Positions 20,483 to 28,913 of a DNA stretch of 64,000 bases are shown here, in pieces. The position numbers were made by a program, and so were the translations under genes. Each line of letters opens with the position of its first letter. Positions within the stretch are counted from its first letter, which is position 1. Origin of the DNA: Opitutia bacterium (lineage in GTDB: Bacteria > Verrucomicrobiota > Verrucomicrobiia > Opitutales > UBA953); the NCBI GenBank assembly GCA_003569165.1, contig BGOI01000001.1:342001-406000 (forward strand), in the 5' to 3' direction. The notes below the pieces were generated by a model that worked only from the letters and a program-made list of their open reading frames with translations, made no database searches and was not told where the DNA came from.

Positions 20483-20597
20483 CAGGCAAGCCCGAACGAA
20501 CGCCCTTCCCTCCCCGCTGGCGAGACCGAAGCAAGAAAACCGCCCGCCGGGCCAGCCATGACCTTGCCCCGTGCCCACCAGTGGGTACGCTGGAGTC

Positions 20598-22424
20598 ATG
20601 GGGCAATTTTCTTACAAGAACGAGGCTGTCGATCCGCACCGGAAGATTCTCTCCGAGCAGCTTGTCATGGACCTAGAGCATGTCGCTGAGACCCCCTTGC
20701 TCGCCCTCGCCAAGCAGATTCCCGGCGGCTACATCCATCGCCGCCCCTTCCTCAAGGCCTCGAAATGGCTTTTCAAGAAACGCCTCGGGCATCTCGCCCA
20801 GGACGCCTCCGCGATCGCCGAACACCTCCCGTGGTTCGCCGAGGCGCTGAAGTGCGAGAAGGCGAAGCTGCTCGAACACCTCGACGAGATGGCCGCCGTC
20901 ATCGGCGGCCCGCGCGCCGCCCTGCTCTGCGTGCTCTGGAACAACCAGGTCGAACAGAAGGACGCCGCCTTGTCCGCCGACCTGCTCCCGCGCCTGCTTA
21001 CGGGCGCCAAGGCCCAGCCCAACAAGCCGGAAGCCAAGGCCTGGAAGGCGCTGCTCGCCAAGCTGGGAGGCGCGACGGAGAAGGAGCCGCTCGATTCCGT
21101 GGACGCCCTGGATTCGGCGGGCAAGACGCTCCGCCGCCTCCAGCAGGAAATCTCGCAAGGCAAGGCCGCCCGCGAGAACGAAGGCCGCGCGATCCGCCGG
21201 CAGCACGCCAACGAACTCGAGGCGAAGGACGCCGAGATCCGCAAGGCCCGCGAGGAGGCCGCGCGCCTTGTCCAAGAAGCCGCCAAACAGGGCGCGACCT
21301 ACGAGACGAACCTCGCGGCCGTGCAGGCGAGGCTGACCGCGGAAGAGGCCGAGGTGGCCCGCCTCCGCGGCGAGCTCGAGCGCGCCCGCGAGCACGTGGC
21401 CAAGAAAGCCCGGGAGATCGCCGAGGAACTGCTGTCCGAGGAGATCCGCCCCTGGCTGGCCGACGCCCGCACGCTGAAATCCGCCTCGGAGGAAGTCGCG
21501 AAGCTCCGCCAGCTGACCACCGAGACCGTCGACAAGATCCGCAAGGCCCAGCGCGACGCCGACCCGTTCCTCGCCAAGGAACATGAGCTCCGCCAGGCGA
21601 TCCCGCAGATGGAAGAGATGCTCAAGCTGCTCCGCCGTTACCTGCGCACCGCGGGCCAGGCCCTCCCTGAAGCGGTCGCCCTCGAGAAGCGGATCACCGA
21701 GCACATCGAGAAGGTGCGTTACGAGCTCGAGAAGCGCGACCAGCCTTCCGACCCCTTCCTGGAGCGCATCTCGGCCAAGATCAACGGGGCGGACGCGCGC
21801 GAGCTCAAGGCCATCGAAGGCGCCCTGGTGCTCGCCGAACTATCCGGCCTCGTCGACTCGCGTCACGCCGACCTCTACCGCCGCGACATCCATCGCCGCC
21901 GGTCCTACATGGCCGACGCCGCCTTCCACGTGCAGAAACAGTCCGGGCCGCTCGCGCTCCTCGAACGCGCCGTGGCCACCGGCGAGAAAGCCCGCCTGGC
22001 CCTGGACGCGAACAACTTCGCCTGCCTGCGCCAGGACTACCTCGGCCTGCGCCTCGCGACCAAGAAGAACGCCCAGGGCGAGAACCGCTACCTGCTCGAC
22101 GGGGCGGCCCGCCAGAAGGTCGTGCAGCTCGCCGAGAAGCTCGCGGACGACGCCCCCGGCCTGCACGTCTGGGTGAGCTTCGACGGCCAGCAAAGCGCCC
22201 TGAAGACCACGAACTCGCGGGTCCGGATCACCTTCAGCCGCGCGGGCGCCAAGGCCGACCACGACATCATGGACCTGGTGGCCAAGGACAAGACCGTGGA
22301 GGCTCCCTGGTTCGTCGTGAGCGACGATATCGAAGTGCGCGACGCCACCGCCCGCGAAGGCGCCTACATCATCTACAACGACGCACTGATCCAGCTCCTC
22401 GTGAATCGCGGGATTCGCGCCTAA
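20598..22424 (+). CDS. Coiled-coil protein with C-terminal YacP-like NYN domain
   Basis: 608 residues from MGQFSYKNEAVDP, with GGAG spacing close to the ATG. Residues about 1-160 form a helical N-terminal region. About 170-390 is a long charged coiled coil rich in Glu, Lys, Arg and Ala (KTLRRLQQEISQGKAAREN and on). The final part, from about 462, matches the YacP-like NYN/PIN-type ribonuclease layout: ARLALDANNFACLRQDY, LHVWVSFDGQQ, ITFSRAGAKADHDIMDLV and the acidic WFVVSDDIEVRDATAREGA. This predicts a metal-dependent RNA-acting domain carried on a scaffold that may oligomerise or contact the ribosome. The combination is not one I can name. It is monocistronic and has its own terminator. Confidence 0.7.
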   Translation: MGQFSYKNEAVDPHRKILSEQLVMDLEHVAETPLLALAKQIPGGYIHRRPFLKASKWLFKKRLGHLAQDASAIAEHLPWFAEALKCEKAKLLEHLDEMAAVIGGPRAALLCVLWNNQVEQKDAALSADLLPRLLTGAKAQPNKPEAKAWKALLAKLGGATEKEPLDSVDALDSAGKTLRRLQQEISQGKAARENEGRAIRRQHANELEAKDAEIRKAREEAARLVQEAAKQGATYETNLAAVQARLTAEEAEVARLRGELERAREHVAKKAREIAEELLSEEIRPWLADARTLKSASEEVAKLRQLTTETVDKIRKAQRDADPFLAKEHELRQAIPQMEEMLKLLRRYLRTAGQALPEAVALEKRITEHIEKVRYELEKRDQPSDPFLERISAKINGADARELKAIEGALVLAELSGLVDSRHADLYRRDIHRRRSYMADAAFHVQKQSGPLALLERAVATGEKARLALDANNFACLRQDYLGLRLATKKNAQGENRYLLDGAARQKVVQLAEKLADDAPGLHVWVSFDGQQSALKTTNSRVRITFSRAGAKADHDIMDLVAKDKTVEAPWFVVSDDIEVRDATAREGAYIIYNDALIQLLVNRGIRA

Positions 22425-22480: not shown

Positions 22481-23557
22481 TTATTTCTTCTTCTTGGCCG
22501 GAGCGGCCGTCAGGGGCGGAGGCAGCACGCCCGCGAAATCCTCGGCCTTCAGGCCAGGGTGGAACATGTTGAAGGAGTACTTGCTCGGCTTCCATTCCAC
22601 GACCGGCGTGACGTCGGCCTTGGCGGGCACCTCGAGGCCGAGACCCCAGAAGACGCCGTTGACGACGAGGCGGCGGAGCGATTCATCGGCGAGATCGCTG
22701 GCGGAGGCCATGGTGGTGGTAAACACGCGGTTCTTGGTGCCACCGGCATTGGGAACTTCGCGAGTCCAGGCCACGGCCATCGCGGGCGAATTGATGCCCT
22801 GCTCCTGCTTATCGGTGGCACGCTTCTTCGCACGTTCGCTCAGGGGATCTTGCGGATTCATGCCCTTAAGGACCAAGCCGCGGAGGAGAATCTGCGCATC
22901 GGCTGGCGGGTAAGCCTCGTAGACATCGGTATCACCGAAGATGACGCCGACACCATTGAGAATCGCGAGCTTCTCGGCACCAGGCTCGACGGCCGTACGG
23001 GTGGCCTCACCCTTGTGGTTGCCCCAGTGGCTGACCCAAGTCTCGCCGAGGACATTCTTACCGAAGCCACCTTTGTTGTTCCAGTTATAGGCGACGAAGG
23101 CGCTTTCCTTCGGGATGCCGGAGAAAGCGTGCGTGCTGGTGCGGGTAGCGACGATCGGCACGCCGCGCTTGATGGCGGCATCGAACTTCGCGAGCGCGCC
23201 ATCATTCCACTTACGGAAACGTAGGCCAAGCACGAGGGCGTCGGCAGTGTCGAGGGCCTCGGGCTTGCCCAGGGAGGCACCATTGTTCGGATTGATCACA
23301 CCGTCGTCATGGGAGAAAAGGACGGTGCATTTGAAGCCATGGCGCTCGGAGAGAATGCGGGCGAGCATCGGTAAGGCTTCTTCGGAGCGATATTCTTCGT
23401 CGCCGACGAGCAGCACGACGTGCTTGCCGGCGCCTGCGCCCTTGCTAGCGGGGAACTCGAGCCAACCTGGGCCGGAAGTAAAGGCCTCCGCAGCGACGGC
23501 CGGGAGAGCAAGGACAAGGGCAGCCAAGGCGGCCCAGAGATGGAGATGACGCTTCAT
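22481..23557 (-). CDS. Exported ThuA-like domain protein
   Basis: 358 residues from MKRHLHLWAALAALVLALPAVAA, a standard signal peptide; an earlier ATG at 23581 is unlikely. The mature protein has the flavodoxin/glutamine-amidotransferase-like fold of ThuA proteins, seen in KHVVLLVGDEEYRSEEALPM, ADALVLGLRFRKW, FDAAIKRGVPIVATRTSTHAF and the HWGNHKGEATR segment. In PVC bacteria such proteins accompany PSD1/DUF1501 and glycoside genes and are thought to act on carbohydrates. The biochemical role is unproven. The C-terminus is a Lys-rich tail. Confidence 0.75.
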   Translation of the reverse strand: MKRHLHLWAALAALVLALPAVAAEAFTSGPGWLEFPASKGAGAGKHVVLLVGDEEYRSEEALPMLARILSERHGFKCTVLFSHDDGVINPNNGASLGKPEALDTADALVLGLRFRKWNDGALAKFDAAIKRGVPIVATRTSTHAFSGIPKESAFVAYNWNNKGGFGKNVLGETWVSHWGNHKGEATRTAVEPGAEKLAILNGVGVIFGDTDVYEAYPPADAQILLRGLVLKGMNPQDPLSERAKKRATDKQEQGINSPAMAVAWTREVPNAGGTKNRVFTTTMASASDLADESLRRLVVNGVFWGLGLEVPAKADVTPVVEWKPSKYSFNMFHPGLKAEDFAGVLPPPLTAAPAKKKK

Positions 23558-23624: not shown

Positions 23625-24179
23625 TCATTTCCGCTCTTTCGACCCATCCTTCTTCGCCGGAGCGGAAGAAAACGGGTCGGGACGAATCGTCTCGCGGCGG
23701 CCATCGGAATAAGTCGTCACCTGATTTCCAAACGGGTCCGTGCGCGTCGTGGCACGAGTGCCGTCGCTGTAACTCGTCGTCGATCCGCCGAACGGATCAG
23801 GCCGCGTGGTCGCCGTCACCCCATTGCTGAAGCGAGTCGTTGAGCCACCGAAGGGGTCCGTCCGGGTCGAACCGGTGACGCCATTACTGTAGCGCGTGGA
23901 AGAGCCGCCGAAGGGGTCTGGCGTCGTCACGGCGGTCACTCCGTTATCATAGCGGGTCTGGGTGCGACCGAACGCATCGGTGCCCTTGACGCCGGACTTT
24001 GGAGCTTCGCCCGTGCGGGGCGCGACCTTCACTTCCGCCGATGGCTTGGCTTCGGGCTTCGTCGCTGATTTTGCTTCGACCCGGGTCGCCTCCTTACGGG
24101 CGGCATCTTTCTTCGGATCCGCCGGGGCGGCAAAGAGCATCGCGGGGCCAAGAACGCCAAGGAGGAGGAACGTCTTCAT
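23625..24179 (-). CDS. Exported protein built of 20-residue RHS/YD-like repeats
   Basis: About 184 residues from MKTFLLLGVLGPAMLFAAP (signal peptide); an ATG at 24224 is an alternative. After a Lys/Ala/Glu-rich linker come four full copies and one degenerate copy of a 20-residue unit of the form (R/S)(Y/F)SNGVTATTRPDPFGGSTT, each holding Tyr/Phe-x-Asn/Asp-Gly and Asp-Pro-Phe-Gly. The spacing and the Y..DG/PFG pattern recall YD (RHS) repeats but in miniature. I know no named family for it. It ends in a Lys-rich tail. A surface or cell-wall binding role is possible. It lies upstream of the ThuA-like gene on the same strand. Confidence 0.65.
   Translation of the reverse strand: MKTFLLLGVLGPAMLFAAPADPKKDAARKEATRVEAKSATKPEAKPSAEVKVAPRTGEAPKSGVKGTDAFGRTQTRYDNGVTAVTTPDPFGGSSTRYSNGVTGSTRTDPFGGSTTRFSNGVTATTRPDPFGGSTTSYSDGTRATTRTDPFGNQVTTYSDGRRETIRPDPFSSAPAKKDGSKERK
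23655..23954 (-). repeat. 60-bp tandem coding repeats (five units)
   Basis: Five consecutive 60-bp units, exactly 20 codons each. The central units are nearly identical at the protein level (SNGVT, DPFGGS) and the last is degenerate. An in-frame tandem array of this kind can gain or lose units by recombination without breaking the gene. Confidence 0.8.
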
Positions 24180-24240
24180 GGGGATGATTCTATTAGAAAA
24201 CAAAGGTGGCCGGACGCAAGCCACGGCCTCGTGAAAACAA

Positions 24241-24272
24241 GAAGGGCGGGCACTTCGCAGTGCCCGCCCTTC
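24241..24272 (-). terminator. Terminator downstream of the first DUF1501 gene
   Basis: A 14-bp perfect stem GAAGGGCGGGCACT/AGTGCCCGCCCTTC with loop TCGC, followed on the minus strand by a T-rich TTGTTTTC. Confidence 0.85.
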
Positions 24273-24293
24273 CGTTCGTGCGACCGAAGTCGC

Positions 24294-25682
24294 TTAGGCG
24301 ATGACCTTGTCGACAACCTTACCGAAGTTATCGGTGAGGCGGAAGTCGCGGCCGTTGTAGCGGAACGTGAGCTTGGTGTGATCGAAGCCGAGGAGACGGA
24401 GGATCGTGGCGTGCAGGTCGTGCACGTCGACGCCGTCCGCGGCGACCTGGGAGCCGATCTCGTCGGTCTCGCCGTAGTGCATGCCGCCCTTGACGCCGCC
24501 GCCGGCCATCCAGCAGCAGAAAGCCTTGGAATGGTGGTCGCGACCGGAAGCCTGGTTGACGCGGCCCGCGGTGGTCGGGGTGCGGCCGAACTCTCCGCCC
24601 CAGATGATGAGAGTCTGGTCGAGGAGACCGCGCTGCTTGAGGTCAGCGATGAGGGCGGCAGCCGGGCCGTCGATGGCTTCAGCCTTACCAGCGATCGCCG
24701 TGAAGAGGTTGGTGTGGTGGTCCCAGCCGCCGGCGTCGACCTGGACGAAGCGGACGCCGCGCTCGACGAGGCGGCGGGCGCAGAGGAGCTTGGCGCCGAG
24801 GTCGGACTTGCCGTACATCTCGCGGGTCTTCTCGGACTCCTTGGAGATGTCGAAGGCGTCGGTCGCGGCGGTCTGCATGCGGAACGCGAGCTCGAAGGAC
24901 TCGATGCGGGCCTCAAGCTGCTCGTCCTTCTGGACGGTCTGCATGTGGCGCTCGTTCAGCTGGCGGACGAGGTCGAGCTGCTTGCGCTGCGCGTCCTGCG
25001 TGGTGAATTCGCTCTGGAGGTTGGCGATGATCTTGTTCGCCGGGGCGCCCGGACGGAACGAGGTGTTCGCGCCCTGGAAGAGGGACGGAAGGAAGGCCGA
25101 GGCGCGGGCGTCGGAGCTGCCGCCGAGGGAGACGAAACCCGGGAGATCCTGGCTTTCGGTGCCGAGGCCGTAGAGGACCCAGGCGCCGAGGGAAGGCTTG
25201 GAGAGGATCGCCGAGCCGGTGTGCATCAGCTTGGCGGCCGGACCGTGGGCCGGGAGGTCCTGGTGGAGCGAACGGATGACGCACATCTCGTCGGCGACGC
25301 CCTGGAGCTTCGGGAAGATCTCGGAGATCTCGAGGCCGGACTTGCCGGACTTCTTGAACTCGAAGGGCGTCGGGAAGAGGACGCCGTTCATGCCGGCGGC
25401 CGACATGTCGGCGAGCTCCTTCATCTTCGGCTTCGGATCGAAGGTGTCGAGGTGCGAGGGAGCGCCGCCCGCGAAGATGTGGATGACGTGCTTCGCCTTG
25501 GCGGCGAGCGGGGCCTTGCGGGGCTTCAGGTTGGCCATCACTTCGGCCTGCGCGTCGCTGACCATGTAGTCGGCGACCATGGTGCCGAAGGCGAGGGCGC
25601 CCATGCCGAGGCCGGTCTGGCGGAGGAACTCGCGACGGGAGTTGGGGGTCGGCACGTAGTTGCCGCAGCTGGAGTCTTTCAT
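24294..25682 (-). CDS. DUF1501 family Tat-exported protein
   Basis: 462 residues. A twin-arginine signal SRREFLRQTGLGMGALAFG starts the protein. The DUF1501 alkaline-phosphatase/sulfatase-like core follows: HVIHIFAGGAPSHLDTFDPKP, RSLHQDLPAHGPAAKLMHTG, VQVDAGGWDHHTN, IIWGGEFGRTPTTAG, GRDHHSKAFCCWMAGGGVKGG and DLHATILRLLGFDHTKLTFRY. Asp and His residues of this set probably bind metal. It pairs with the PSD1 gene 69 bases upstream, the standard PVC arrangement. The substrate is unknown; a role in polysaccharide breakdown is an inference. Confidence 0.9.
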   Translation of the reverse strand: MKDSSCGNYVPTPNSRREFLRQTGLGMGALAFGTMVADYMVSDAQAEVMANLKPRKAPLAAKAKHVIHIFAGGAPSHLDTFDPKPKMKELADMSAAGMNGVLFPTPFEFKKSGKSGLEISEIFPKLQGVADEMCVIRSLHQDLPAHGPAAKLMHTGSAILSKPSLGAWVLYGLGTESQDLPGFVSLGGSSDARASAFLPSLFQGANTSFRPGAPANKIIANLQSEFTTQDAQRKQLDLVRQLNERHMQTVQKDEQLEARIESFELAFRMQTAATDAFDISKESEKTREMYGKSDLGAKLLCARRLVERGVRFVQVDAGGWDHHTNLFTAIAGKAEAIDGPAAALIADLKQRGLLDQTLIIWGGEFGRTPTTAGRVNQASGRDHHSKAFCCWMAGGGVKGGMHYGETDEIGSQVAADGVDVHDLHATILRLLGFDHTKLTFRYNGRDFRLTDNFGKVVDKVIA

Positions 25683-25751: not shown

Positions 25752-28700
25752 TCAATTCAGGTAGACGAACTCGTTGGAGCAGATCATCGACTGGGCCAGC
25801 ATGACCCAGGGGTTGGCGGGCACCTTGCGGTCCACTTTTTCGGTGTTATTCACGATTTTCCCGCCTTGAACCGAGGTTTCGATCTTCACCTCAGGGGCGG
25901 CCTTGGCGGTGGTGGCGGTGGCCGCCTTGGCCTTGGCGGCCTTTTCCGCCCGGGATTTGGCGAGCTTGTCGGCCTTGGGGGAGACCGGCGGTTCGTCGAT
26001 GTACCCGGCGATACGGGCCACGAATTCACGGGCGACCTGACGCTCCTGCACGGTCGGCGAGCGCTGGTACATGATGCGATAGAGCTGGGTCACGCGCTCG
26101 TCGTCGGACGACGCCTTGGCCATCTCGGGGCGGGCGGTGACATTGCGCGCGACCTCCACGGCCAGCGGATTGTTCATGAAGAACAGCGCCTGCTGCGGGA
26201 CGATGGTCGAACCGCGGGTCGAGTTGGCCATGTTGGGATCGGCGAAGTCGAACTGCGACTGGAACTCGCTGAGCTTGTCGCGATCGATGAAGCCGTAGAT
26301 GGTCCGGCGATAGCTGTAAGGCTCGTCGGTGATGTTCACCGCGCGGCCGCCCAGGGCGCGGTCGAGCTTGCCGGAGAGGAGCAGCATCGAGTCGCGGATC
26401 GACTCGAAGTCGAGACGACGGAGGTTGGCGTGCCAGAGGAACTTGTTGGCCGCGTCGACCTTCAGGGGGTCGACGCCGGACTTCTGCGCGACGAGGACGT
26501 TGTCGTTCGGATTGGCGGACTGGCGGTAGGTCGCGGAGAGCAGGATGCGCTTGTGCATCTTCTTGATGGACCAGCCGCCCTCGACGAAGGCCGTGGCCAT
26601 CCAGTCCAGGAGCTCGGGGTGGCTCGGCGCTTCGGACATGTTGCCGAAATCATCGGGCGAGGTGACGATGCCGACGCCGAAGTGGTGCATCCAGAGACGG
26701 TTCACGAGCACGCGGGCGGTGAGCGGGTTGGTGCGGCTGGCGATGGCCAGGGCGAGCTCGCGACGGCCGCTGCCTTCGTAGAACGGCAGCCGGTCGGGAC
26801 CGGCCAGGACCTCGAGGAACTGGCGGGGCGCCACGGGACCGCGCTTGTTGCGGTCGCCGCGGATGTAGACGTAGCTGTCGCGCGGCTTCTCGACGTCGGT
26901 GACCACCATCGCGGTGCCGGGACCGCCCGGGTGGGTGATGTCGAGGGCGTTGATGTCGGCGAACTTGAAGTACTTCGCGGGCTTGTTGTTGTTGACGAAG
27001 GTCGAGGCGATGGGGACCTGCCAGCTGTCGCAGAAATCGCGGCTCTCGGTCAGGCGCTCGAGGAGCGAGACGGTGGAGATGTCCTCGACGTTGGGGAGCG
27101 GCCAGGGGAAGGCGGCGAGCTGGGCGAGGGCGGGGTCGTCCTTGTCGCCCCTGCGACCCGGCTGGCTGCGCATCTGGATGTGCGCGACGATCTTGTCGCG
27201 GTGCTTCTTGAAGATGGCCTGGTAGGCGAACGCGACCTCGTCGAGGCTCTTGGGCTTGAGGCCGCGGAGGCCTTCGGCGACCAGCGGGTTCAGCGGGCTC
27301 TTCTTGTCGGCGAGGGCGGCCTCGATGATCGCGGGGGCCTGCTTCTCGAAGTTGTCGGCGCCGACGCGCTTGAGGCGGACCAGCAGGCCGGTGATCGGAT
27401 GGTCGGGGCGCGCGACGGAAGCGGCGAAGGACGGGTCGAGCTCGCGGCTCTGGCCGAGGTCGTACTTCTTCAGGATATCGAAGCCCGCGGTGCTGCGGAA
27501 GCCGCCGACCAGCGAAGCGAGGGCGCGGGGGGCGAACTCGCGGTGGAAGGCGGCCTGCATGCCGGCGAGGTGCTTGTAGTAGCCGCCGGCGGTGGTGTTG
27601 ATGAGCTCGGCGAGCTTCTTCTCATAGTCGGCGCGGTAGGCGTTGGTCGGGGCGTTCTTGCCGACGAGGAGCGGATCGCGGACGACCGGGTTCTGCTGCG
27701 GCTCGATGACGGAAGCGAAGATGCCGTGCAGGGAATAATAGTCGGCGGCCGGGATCGGGTCGAACTTATGGTCATGGCAGCGCGAGCAGGCGACGGTCAG
27801 GCCCAGGAAGCCCTTGGTCGTGGCGTCGATGCGCTCGTCGATCGTGTCGTCGGCGTTCTGGAAGCGCTTGCCGACGGTGATGAAGCCCAGGGCCGCGAGA
27901 CGCGGGTCGTCCTTGGCGAGGTCCGGCAGGCGGTCGGCGGCGAGCTGCTCGATGATGAACTGATCGTAAGGCTTGTCGGAGTTGAAGGCGTCGATGACGT
28001 AGTCGCGGTAGGTCCAGGAGGCGTCGAACGTCTCGATGGTGCCGTTGCGCTTGAGGCCCTTGGTGTCGGAGTAGCGGGCGGTGTCGAGCCAGTGGCGGGC
28101 CCAGCGTTCGCCGTAGTGCGGCGAGGCGAGCAGGCGGTCGACGGTGCGCTCGACGACGCCGGCGACGGCGCGGCCGGGCTGGCCCTTGCGGGCGGCCATG
28201 TTGTCCATGGCGAGGGCGGAATCGTATTCGCGGGAGAAGGCGTCGACCTCGACGCTGGTCGGCGGCAGGCCGATCAGGTCGTACGACAGGCGGCGCAGCA
28301 GCGCTTCGCCGTCGGCGGCGGGATTAGGCTTGAGCCCTTTCTCGTCGAGCTTCGCGAGCACGAACGCGTCGACTTCGTTCTGGCACCAGGCGGCGTTGCT
28401 GAGCTTGGTCGGGACGGCGAATTCGCGGACCGGTTGGAAGGCCCAGTGGCTGCGCGCCTTGTCGGAAAGACCGGTGAGTTTGGCGCCGCCGGCACCGGCG
28501 GGAGCCGGCGCACCCATCTTGATCCACTGCTCAAGGGACGCGATCTGCGCGTCGGAAAGCTTGGCGCCCTTCTTGCGCGGCGGCATCGAAAGATCAGGAT
28601 CCGTCTGATGGACGGCAAGGATCAGCATGGATTTCTTGATATCGCCCGGCACGACCGCCGGACCTAGATCGCCACCTGCCAGCAGGCCCGCGCGCGAGTC

Positions 28701-28913
28701 CATGATCAGGCCACCCTTGGAGACGCCCTTCTCCTTCGAGTGACATTCGTAACAACGTTCGGTGAAGATCGGACGGACGTTCTTCTCGAAGAATTCCAAG
28801 CCGGCCGGATCCATCTTCGGTTCGGCGGGAGCGTCGGCGGCGGAAAGCATGGCGGTCGATCCCAAGGCGGCGAGCACGGGGAGGAGACGAAGCATGTTCG
28901 GGTGGCGTTTCAT
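25752..28913 (-). CDS. PSD1 protein: cytochrome-like plus DUF1549/DUF1553
   Basis: 1053 residues with a signal peptide. A planctomycete-cytochrome-C-like N-terminus has the haem motif ERCYECHSKEKG. DUF1549 follows (AFVLAKLDEKGLKPNPAAD, YGERWARHWLDTARY, FIIEQLAADRLPDL) and contains a second CxxCH in VACSRCHDHKFDPIPAADYY. DUF1553 closes the protein (RRELALAIASRTNPLTARVLVNRLWM, FGNMSEAPSHPELLDWMA). An Ala/Lys-rich insertion lies near the C-terminus, before WVMLAQSMICSNEFVYLN. Such proteins are exported and may form redox or carbohydrate-active complexes with DUF1501; the activity is not known. Confidence 0.9.
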   Translation of the reverse strand: MKRHPNMLRLLPVLAALGSTAMLSAADAPAEPKMDPAGLEFFEKNVRPIFTERCYECHSKEKGVSKGGLIMDSRAGLLAGGDLGPAVVPGDIKKSMLILAVHQTDPDLSMPPRKKGAKLSDAQIASLEQWIKMGAPAPAGAGGAKLTGLSDKARSHWAFQPVREFAVPTKLSNAAWCQNEVDAFVLAKLDEKGLKPNPAADGEALLRRLSYDLIGLPPTSVEVDAFSREYDSALAMDNMAARKGQPGRAVAGVVERTVDRLLASPHYGERWARHWLDTARYSDTKGLKRNGTIETFDASWTYRDYVIDAFNSDKPYDQFIIEQLAADRLPDLAKDDPRLAALGFITVGKRFQNADDTIDERIDATTKGFLGLTVACSRCHDHKFDPIPAADYYSLHGIFASVIEPQQNPVVRDPLLVGKNAPTNAYRADYEKKLAELINTTAGGYYKHLAGMQAAFHREFAPRALASLVGGFRSTAGFDILKKYDLGQSRELDPSFAASVARPDHPITGLLVRLKRVGADNFEKQAPAIIEAALADKKSPLNPLVAEGLRGLKPKSLDEVAFAYQAIFKKHRDKIVAHIQMRSQPGRRGDKDDPALAQLAAFPWPLPNVEDISTVSLLERLTESRDFCDSWQVPIASTFVNNNKPAKYFKFADINALDITHPGGPGTAMVVTDVEKPRDSYVYIRGDRNKRGPVAPRQFLEVLAGPDRLPFYEGSGRRELALAIASRTNPLTARVLVNRLWMHHFGVGIVTSPDDFGNMSEAPSHPELLDWMATAFVEGGWSIKKMHKRILLSATYRQSANPNDNVLVAQKSGVDPLKVDAANKFLWHANLRRLDFESIRDSMLLLSGKLDRALGGRAVNITDEPYSYRRTIYGFIDRDKLSEFQSQFDFADPNMANSTRGSTIVPQQALFFMNNPLAVEVARNVTARPEMAKASSDDERVTQLYRIMYQRSPTVQERQVAREFVARIAGYIDEPPVSPKADKLAKSRAEKAAKAKAATATTAKAAPEVKIETSVQGGKIVNNTEKVDRKVPANPWVMLAQSMICSNEFVYLN

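Follow-up and report, generated by a model that had tools for sequence, protein, structure and literature searches.

The window analysed here, a 64,000-nucleotide stretch of an Opitutia bacterium contig, encodes a 184-residue protein with an export-type start and five tandem 20-residue units, a number that is the same in every relative we aligned. By sequence and local structure, its closest known fold is the TCP10 (G-box) β-meander of CPAP/SAS-4. The protein looks like a fixed-length, open β-sheet strip that binds along its face, and not like a strain-variable relative of toxins.

A small exported protein with five 20-residue units

The original prediction placed in this region a protein of 20-residue repeats, four regular and one degenerate, behind a signal peptide and a basic linker. 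That description is accurate: the open reading frame, the export signal, the linker and the five units are all present, with units 2–5 regular and unit 1 degenerate (Table 1). The units begin at D68, D88, D108, D128 and D148, an exact 20-residue spacing that runs from D68 to P167, and they are followed by a DPFS cap at residues 168–171. The view that this is an exported β-hairpin protein was borne out by the export-type start and by the strands predicted below, and its small size, with neither toxin nor core domain, was likewise confirmed, as about 104 of the 184 residues are repeats and a 13-residue tail is all that lies past the cap. A possible cleavage site for the export signal, judged from the residues present, is APA-D; in repeat proteins of other clades the start is longer and anchor-like. 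The linker, which differs among relatives in length and kind, has pLDDT values below 50 across residues 6–47 of the AlphaFold model of the window protein.

Across 180 units, five from each of 36 aligned sequences (the window protein and 35 loci), the consensus is D-[PA]-[FL]-G-x-x-x-T-R-[YF]-S-[ND]-G-x-T-A-x-x-R-x. D1 (179/180), G4 (180/180) and G13 (180/180) are practically invariant, and further rows are formed by T8 in 161, Y or F at position 10 in 171 and R19 in 149 of the 180 units.

Table 1. Features of the repeat-protein gene and its surroundings (positions in the window)
Feature	Position	Strand	Comment
356-residue protein, downstream neighbour	22481–23551	−	Export-type start; no family match
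Repeat-protein gene, 184 aa + stop codon	23625–24179	−	ORF 24179 to 23625; relatives found
DPF cap and basic C-terminal tail	23628–23678	−	
Unit 5, DPFGNQVTTYSDGRRETIRP	23679–23738	−	
Unit 4, DPFGGSTTSYSDGTRATTRT	23739–23798	−	
Unit 3, DPFGGSTTRFSNGVTATTRP	23799–23858	−	
Unit 2, DPFGGSSTRYSNGVTGSTRT	23859–23918	−	
Unit 1, DAFGRTQTRYDNGVTAVTTP	23919–23978	−	
Lys/Ala/Pro linker, basic, residues 21–67	23979–24119	−	Mostly predicted disordered; length variable
N-terminal hydrophobic export signal, ~residues 1–20	24120–24179	−	Read from sequence
TTCTAATAGA, directly 5′ of start codon	24189–24198	−	Same place in many close relatives
Terminator-like hairpin between DUF1501 gene and repeat gene	24240–24273	−	
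DUF1501 protein with Tat signal, upstream neighbour	24294–25682	−	Pfam PF07394, E 9.8e-140; TIGR01409
PSCyt1-PSCyt2-PSD1 protein, same gene cluster	25752–28913	−	

The number of units is fixed and the units are old

It had been proposed that the repeat number can change by in-frame recombination, such that the protein may vary between strains, and a comparison of related genomes was suggested as a check. In that comparison the variability claim fell. All 36 aligned sequences have five units, with zero gaps over the 104 repeat columns, and full-length identity to the window protein drops as low as 43% in this set; L092 and L093, assessed by reading, also have five units each. We therefore rejected variation in repeat number. 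Selection on the gene is purifying, with a median dN/dS of 0.129 and values below 1 in all 234 usable pairs (those of 630 with dS between 0.1 and 1.2). The recurrence of the same 104 residues, gap-free, in every aligned sequence, together with dN/dS below 1, argues that the array is not a product of chance. Tandem Repeats Finder listed no array at the repeat gene, because the units are far diverged at the DNA level. Taken together, the gap-free columns, the dN/dS values and the lack of a listed array indicate that the repeats are old, that each unit is maintained by selection and that their number is fixed, a clear counter-example to the free variation of such tandem repeats.

In amino acid distances taken irrespective of how the genomes are related, the same unit in two species differs by 0.265, versus 0.464 for different units within one protein (all five units included); units 2 and 3, compared in the same manner, differ by 0.192 within a genome versus 0.292 between genomes (within smaller than between in 34 of 36), and their third positions by 0.488 versus 0.564 (23 of 36). 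Since, across all five units, a given unit is closer to its counterpart in another species than to other units of the same protein, the units have old, separate identities; units 2 and 3 show the opposite order. The D-x-x-G turn shifts jointly across units by clade (DPFG, DAIG, DALG, DVLG, DSLG), yet synonymous codons differ between units despite this joint change. Recent copying of whole units thus lacks support, and wide concerted evolution, which we had considered, is supported only in part.

The family is known from a single genus

Within the genomes searched, the family is known from one Opitutia genus only. With the window protein as query, 21 of the 25 genomes searched in the genus, its own included, proved to have it, against 0 of 13 from other families of the order. 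A search for other proteins with the same unit had been suggested as a further check. Among 286 genomes of the class, a family profile retrieved two genuine family members, each from this genus, and the remaining matches were three YD-repeat proteins at E 0.003–0.005 and one antisense artefact. The family profile found no member in one 99% complete genome of the genus or in three genomes of a sister genus. A scan of genome contigs yielded 35 loci, from records mostly labelled as Opitutia, Opitutae, Opitutus or Verrucomicrobia MAGs. One of them (L033, CALPIW020000027.1) shows the full Opitutia gene order under the name Polynucleobacter meluiroseus and is probably a mis-binned contig.

Viral contigs held no relative of the repeat protein, plasmids gave no match to it, and a search of PHROG with it found none; NCBIfam gave no convincing match. 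Two candidates were discarded. The first (G159/L095, E 1.8e-8) lies antisense to the gene of a different repeat protein; this frame also tops the decoys, which shows that periodic frames can fool the family profile. The second (L002, E 6.11) is a chance match.

Likeness to the TCP10 domain of CPAP/SAS-4

A β-ladder or β-helix had been envisaged at the outset, and AlphaFold returned eleven consecutive short strands for the window protein and for the most divergent member alike, with block-mean pLDDT of 93–94 over residues 61–170 of the former and 86–94 over residues 41–140 of the latter. When these models were compared with the PDB using Foldseek, CPAP/SAS-4 TCP10 structures were the best ten matches of the window model and the best eleven of the divergent member. 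Their E-values lay between about 1e-3 and 2e-2, the best being 1.3e-3 for the first model and 7.7e-4 for the second, and TM-scores to CPAP were at most 0.25 for both. Rhs, teneurin, OspA and designed sheets ranked below CPAP, and no enzyme was singled out in the fold lists.

Profile searches pointed to the same domain. Tcp10_C (PF07202) was the Pfam family most often matched: at E ≤ 1 it turned up in every one of 20 members, with a best value of 1.9e-6, and 3 reversed controls gave no match. The match on the window protein covers residues 133–165, the end of unit 4 and unit 5, and scores 16.6 bits; seven forward proteins score 13.9–26.8 bits. These values lie under the curated Pfam cut-off of 36 bits, which no Tcp10_C match reaches in any of 57 genomes. 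At E ≤ 1e-4, 0 of 288 genomes of the phylum have a Tcp10_C match, a result that does not imply absence as the controls were equally without a match. Weak Tcp10_C matches at L114 and L117 lie in unrelated proteins and were set aside. A separate 517-residue frame in the same genus (G039, L109:166–1716, minus strand) contains a short run of hairpins, YSDGTKTVVYRNGLITKVYRNGALTAVYEDG, with a Tcp10_C score of 20.2 bits. We found no paper linking Tcp10_C or this 20-residue unit with Verrucomicrobia.

Like the TCP10/G-box domain of CPAP, the repeat domain has tandem hairpins with x-D-G or x-N-G turns, consecutive predicted strands, no apparent hydrophobic core and a row of aromatics, and CPAP has TVYSDGRQETQYP where unit 5 has TTYSDGRRETIRP. 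Unlike the CPAP domain, it belongs to a bacterial, exported, stand-alone protein without a coiled coil, and it has eleven predicted strands compared with about 20. These similarities suggest that the protein may work like a short TCP10-type hairpin ladder; they do not establish membership in the TCP10 or the YD/RHS family.

We also considered whether the predicted sheet is open or closed. In VIA-align, which weighs overall shape, barrels and a designed protein (Z 7.0–5.1) scored above CPAP (Z 5.0, rmsd 4.2 over 62 residues). The designed protein had a Z of 7.0, followed by 6.5 for an anti-sigma factor and 5.7 for a luciferase, with all Z values in the range that the tool calls common; the placing of barrels and the designed protein above CPAP indicates that the model may be curled. 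A viral structure library gave two matches at E of about 1e-3 or better, one of which (TMt 0.61, rmsd 2.1) is a phage protein of 132 residues with the name YfaZ and hints at the same. The two faces, as we assigned them from strand alternation, contain 23% and 17% V/I/L/M/F/W/Y, and no hydrophobic core is apparent. The lack of a hydrophobic face in the residue pattern favours an open, wet sheet over a closed barrel, and we infer that the repeat domain would form an open single-layer sheet. Should the sheet prove to be open, like that of CPAP, the protein would be a small natural five-hairpin ladder in which coreless folding and length selection are open to study.

Other hairpin-repeat families

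The original prediction likened the units to YD/RHS repeats. Its own refuting condition paired a constant unit number with a lack of YD similarity in profile searches; on that standard variability is rejected and the YD claim survives as a weak analogy, in that both are hairpin repeats with similar spacing: the YD/RHS repeats and the teneurin YD shell share with the present unit a hairpin of about 20 residues, the D-x-[LF]-G motif and a Tyr before the turn. As a statement of kinship it fared less well than the TCP10 likeness. The core motif of YD/RHS repeats is Tyr-Asp-x-x-Gly, whereas our 20-residue unit has Y-x-[ND]-G; Y-D-x-x-G occurs in 0 of 180 units, and all 180 have Gly as the third residue past the aromatic. 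The hollow shell with an Rhs core domain and C-terminal cargo that characterizes YD/RHS proteins has no counterpart here, nor is there a toxin. Pfam RHS_repeat (PF05593) matched none of 20 members at E ≤ 1 and did not match the window protein at E ≤ 10, the own genome has no RHS_repeat match above the cut-off (best E 3.84), and when the family profile was run against the PDB, an Rhs core came no closer than E = 0.07.

The protein could nonetheless be a shortened and domesticated piece of a YD/RHS shell that retained the ladder of hairpins, and possibly an ability to bind glycans, without toxin or core. Such an origin would accord with the three true YD proteins reached by the family profile, with the recurrence of Rhs cores and teneurins in the fold lists and the PDB profile search, and with an hhalign comparison in which the repeats were aligned to YD segments from two of the three. 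This gave a probability of 94 and a score of 42.0, as opposed to 9.95 for the reversed control and at most 14.1 in 10 shuffles. However, the proteins that gave this score were selected by the family profile itself. When YD proteins were chosen through Pfam instead, the best of 12, searched together with 1306 decoy frames, had E 0.61, and hhalign gave 16.0, below the best of 30 shuffles (19.2), with three segments only. Since the likeness vanishes with unselected YD proteins, YD is the weaker analogy, and with the missing motif and the poor RHS_repeat result in the own genome also against it, we regard descent from a YD/RHS shell as unlikely.

MORN repeats (PF02493) are also short, Gly-rich β-hairpin repeats; an hhalign score of 16.8 against them fell within 30 shuffles (maximum 18.1), and there was no Pfam MORN match. 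The single-layer sheet of OspA, which sits between globular ends, and designed sheet proteins appear in the Foldseek lists, and we saw no sequence match of the repeat protein to either.

A fixed slot in a PSCyt/DUF1501 gene cluster

In all 35 loci the gene for the conserved 356-residue protein lies downstream of the repeat gene, and in 33 the DUF1501 gene lies upstream; the other two start at a contig end immediately ahead of the repeat gene. Starting from the downstream gene, the repeat gene was found in 27 of 30 loci, the other three stopping at a contig end, and it is present in 27 of 28 informative sites reached via neighbour genes. In G152, a near-complete genome of the genus that came up in the class-wide search, the DUF1501 and downstream genes lie about 140 bases apart without the repeat gene. 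The slot is therefore constant, and G152 either can do without the gene or belongs to a line outside the one that gained it; because G152 keeps the neighbours, the repeat gene is not essential to them. This empty but intact slot, and the restriction to one genus, would suit a dispensable orphan with a folded, non-binding role, such as an envelope spacer. We think this unlikely, given the strong conservation of single non-turn residues (R19, Y10, T8).

The downstream protein carries a Pro-rich tail in readable loci with the repeat gene. We dropped this tail as a signal of partnership, as it is also present in G152, and shorter Pro/Lys tails occur in paralogues. In the available text of He et al. 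(PMC5615132), context ties PSCyt genes to carbohydrate use and their function itself is unknown. The own genome (2.0 Mb) contains 16 matches to the DUF1501 protein of the window, a striking expansion. Positions 20571–22424 (plus strand) encode a 617-residue protein with a long charged stretch and then a C-terminal YacP-like NYN domain (E 3.1e-6).

A proposed binding strip

Two strands of a β-sheet span about 9.6 Å, near the periods of a polyproline II helix and of a β-1,4 glycan disaccharide. In our model, the only folded part would consist of five side-by-side 20-residue hairpins with eleven strands in total, a domain of constant length, which the signal and linker would set in the periplasm or on the envelope. 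One unit would correspond to a two-strand period, placing Thr8, Tyr/Phe10, Thr15/17 and Arg19 in rows on one face. We propose a polymer-binding strip with Tyr, Thr and Arg rows repeated at about 10 Å. The rows would hold a single polymer in extended form, either a glycan or a peptide rich in proline, much as TCP10 holds proline-rich STIL: the available text of PMC3776556 describes TCP10 as a coreless single-layer meander in which aromatics along one edge pack on STIL prolines in a polyproline II helix, and that of PMC4554922 gives the bound STIL motif as PRxxPxP. The strip would then serve the PSCyt and DUF1501 proteins encoded next to it as an adaptor of fixed length. That this five-hairpin open meander serves as a periplasmic or envelope binding strip and adaptor is the reading we prefer, a tentative one whose chances fall just short of even. 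A more specific version, a bacterial stand-alone, exported counterpart of the coreless open meander of centriolar CPAP that acts as a five-hairpin ruler with contacts every 10 Å or so for a periplasmic oxidative PSCyt/DUF1501 system, its unit turn residues changing together between species, is doubtful. The repeat protein would also offer a handle on PSCyt/DUF1501 gene sets, which are frequent in freshwater Verrucomicrobia.

Two other uses of such a sheet were weighed against the binding strip. Curlin has five repeats, and a short exported protein with five hairpin repeats and open sheet ends could similarly be the subunit of a functional amyloid or self-assembling fibre, its edges stacking end to end; head-to-tail assembly of the TCP10 sheet was indeed seen in crystals, according to the available text of PMC4554922. 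On the other hand, TCP10 is mainly monomeric in solution (available text of PMC3776556), the own genome (86.6% complete) has no CsgG at E ≤ 1, and Pfam gave no curlin match, which together make a fibre subunit very unlikely. Thr dominates one face (462 of 1080 cells), and many hosts are apparently lake bacteria, to judge from record titles, features that might suit a flat Thr-rich face binding ice or a mineral surface. In the most divergent member (L056), however, many Thr are lost while the aromatic and Arg positions are kept, and the flatness of a Thr lattice would be disrupted by Arg19 and Tyr10. We consider ice or mineral binding highly improbable.

The region upstream of the repeat gene

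Stems of at least 8 pairs are present in 17 of 34 upstream regions of relatives, one of them (L052) falling in coding sequence, and in 12 of the 17 the next 10 bases include four or more T. Among relatives (for example L023, L032, L054 and L055), the sequence of the hairpin changes and the stem stays. The position of this terminator-like hairpin after the DUF1501 gene suggests that the repeat gene may have its own transcript start. TTCTAATAGA occurs as one exact copy in the window, versus 0.02 expected; it is a candidate −10 element, in which case the transcript would possibly have a very short leader and be nearly leaderless.
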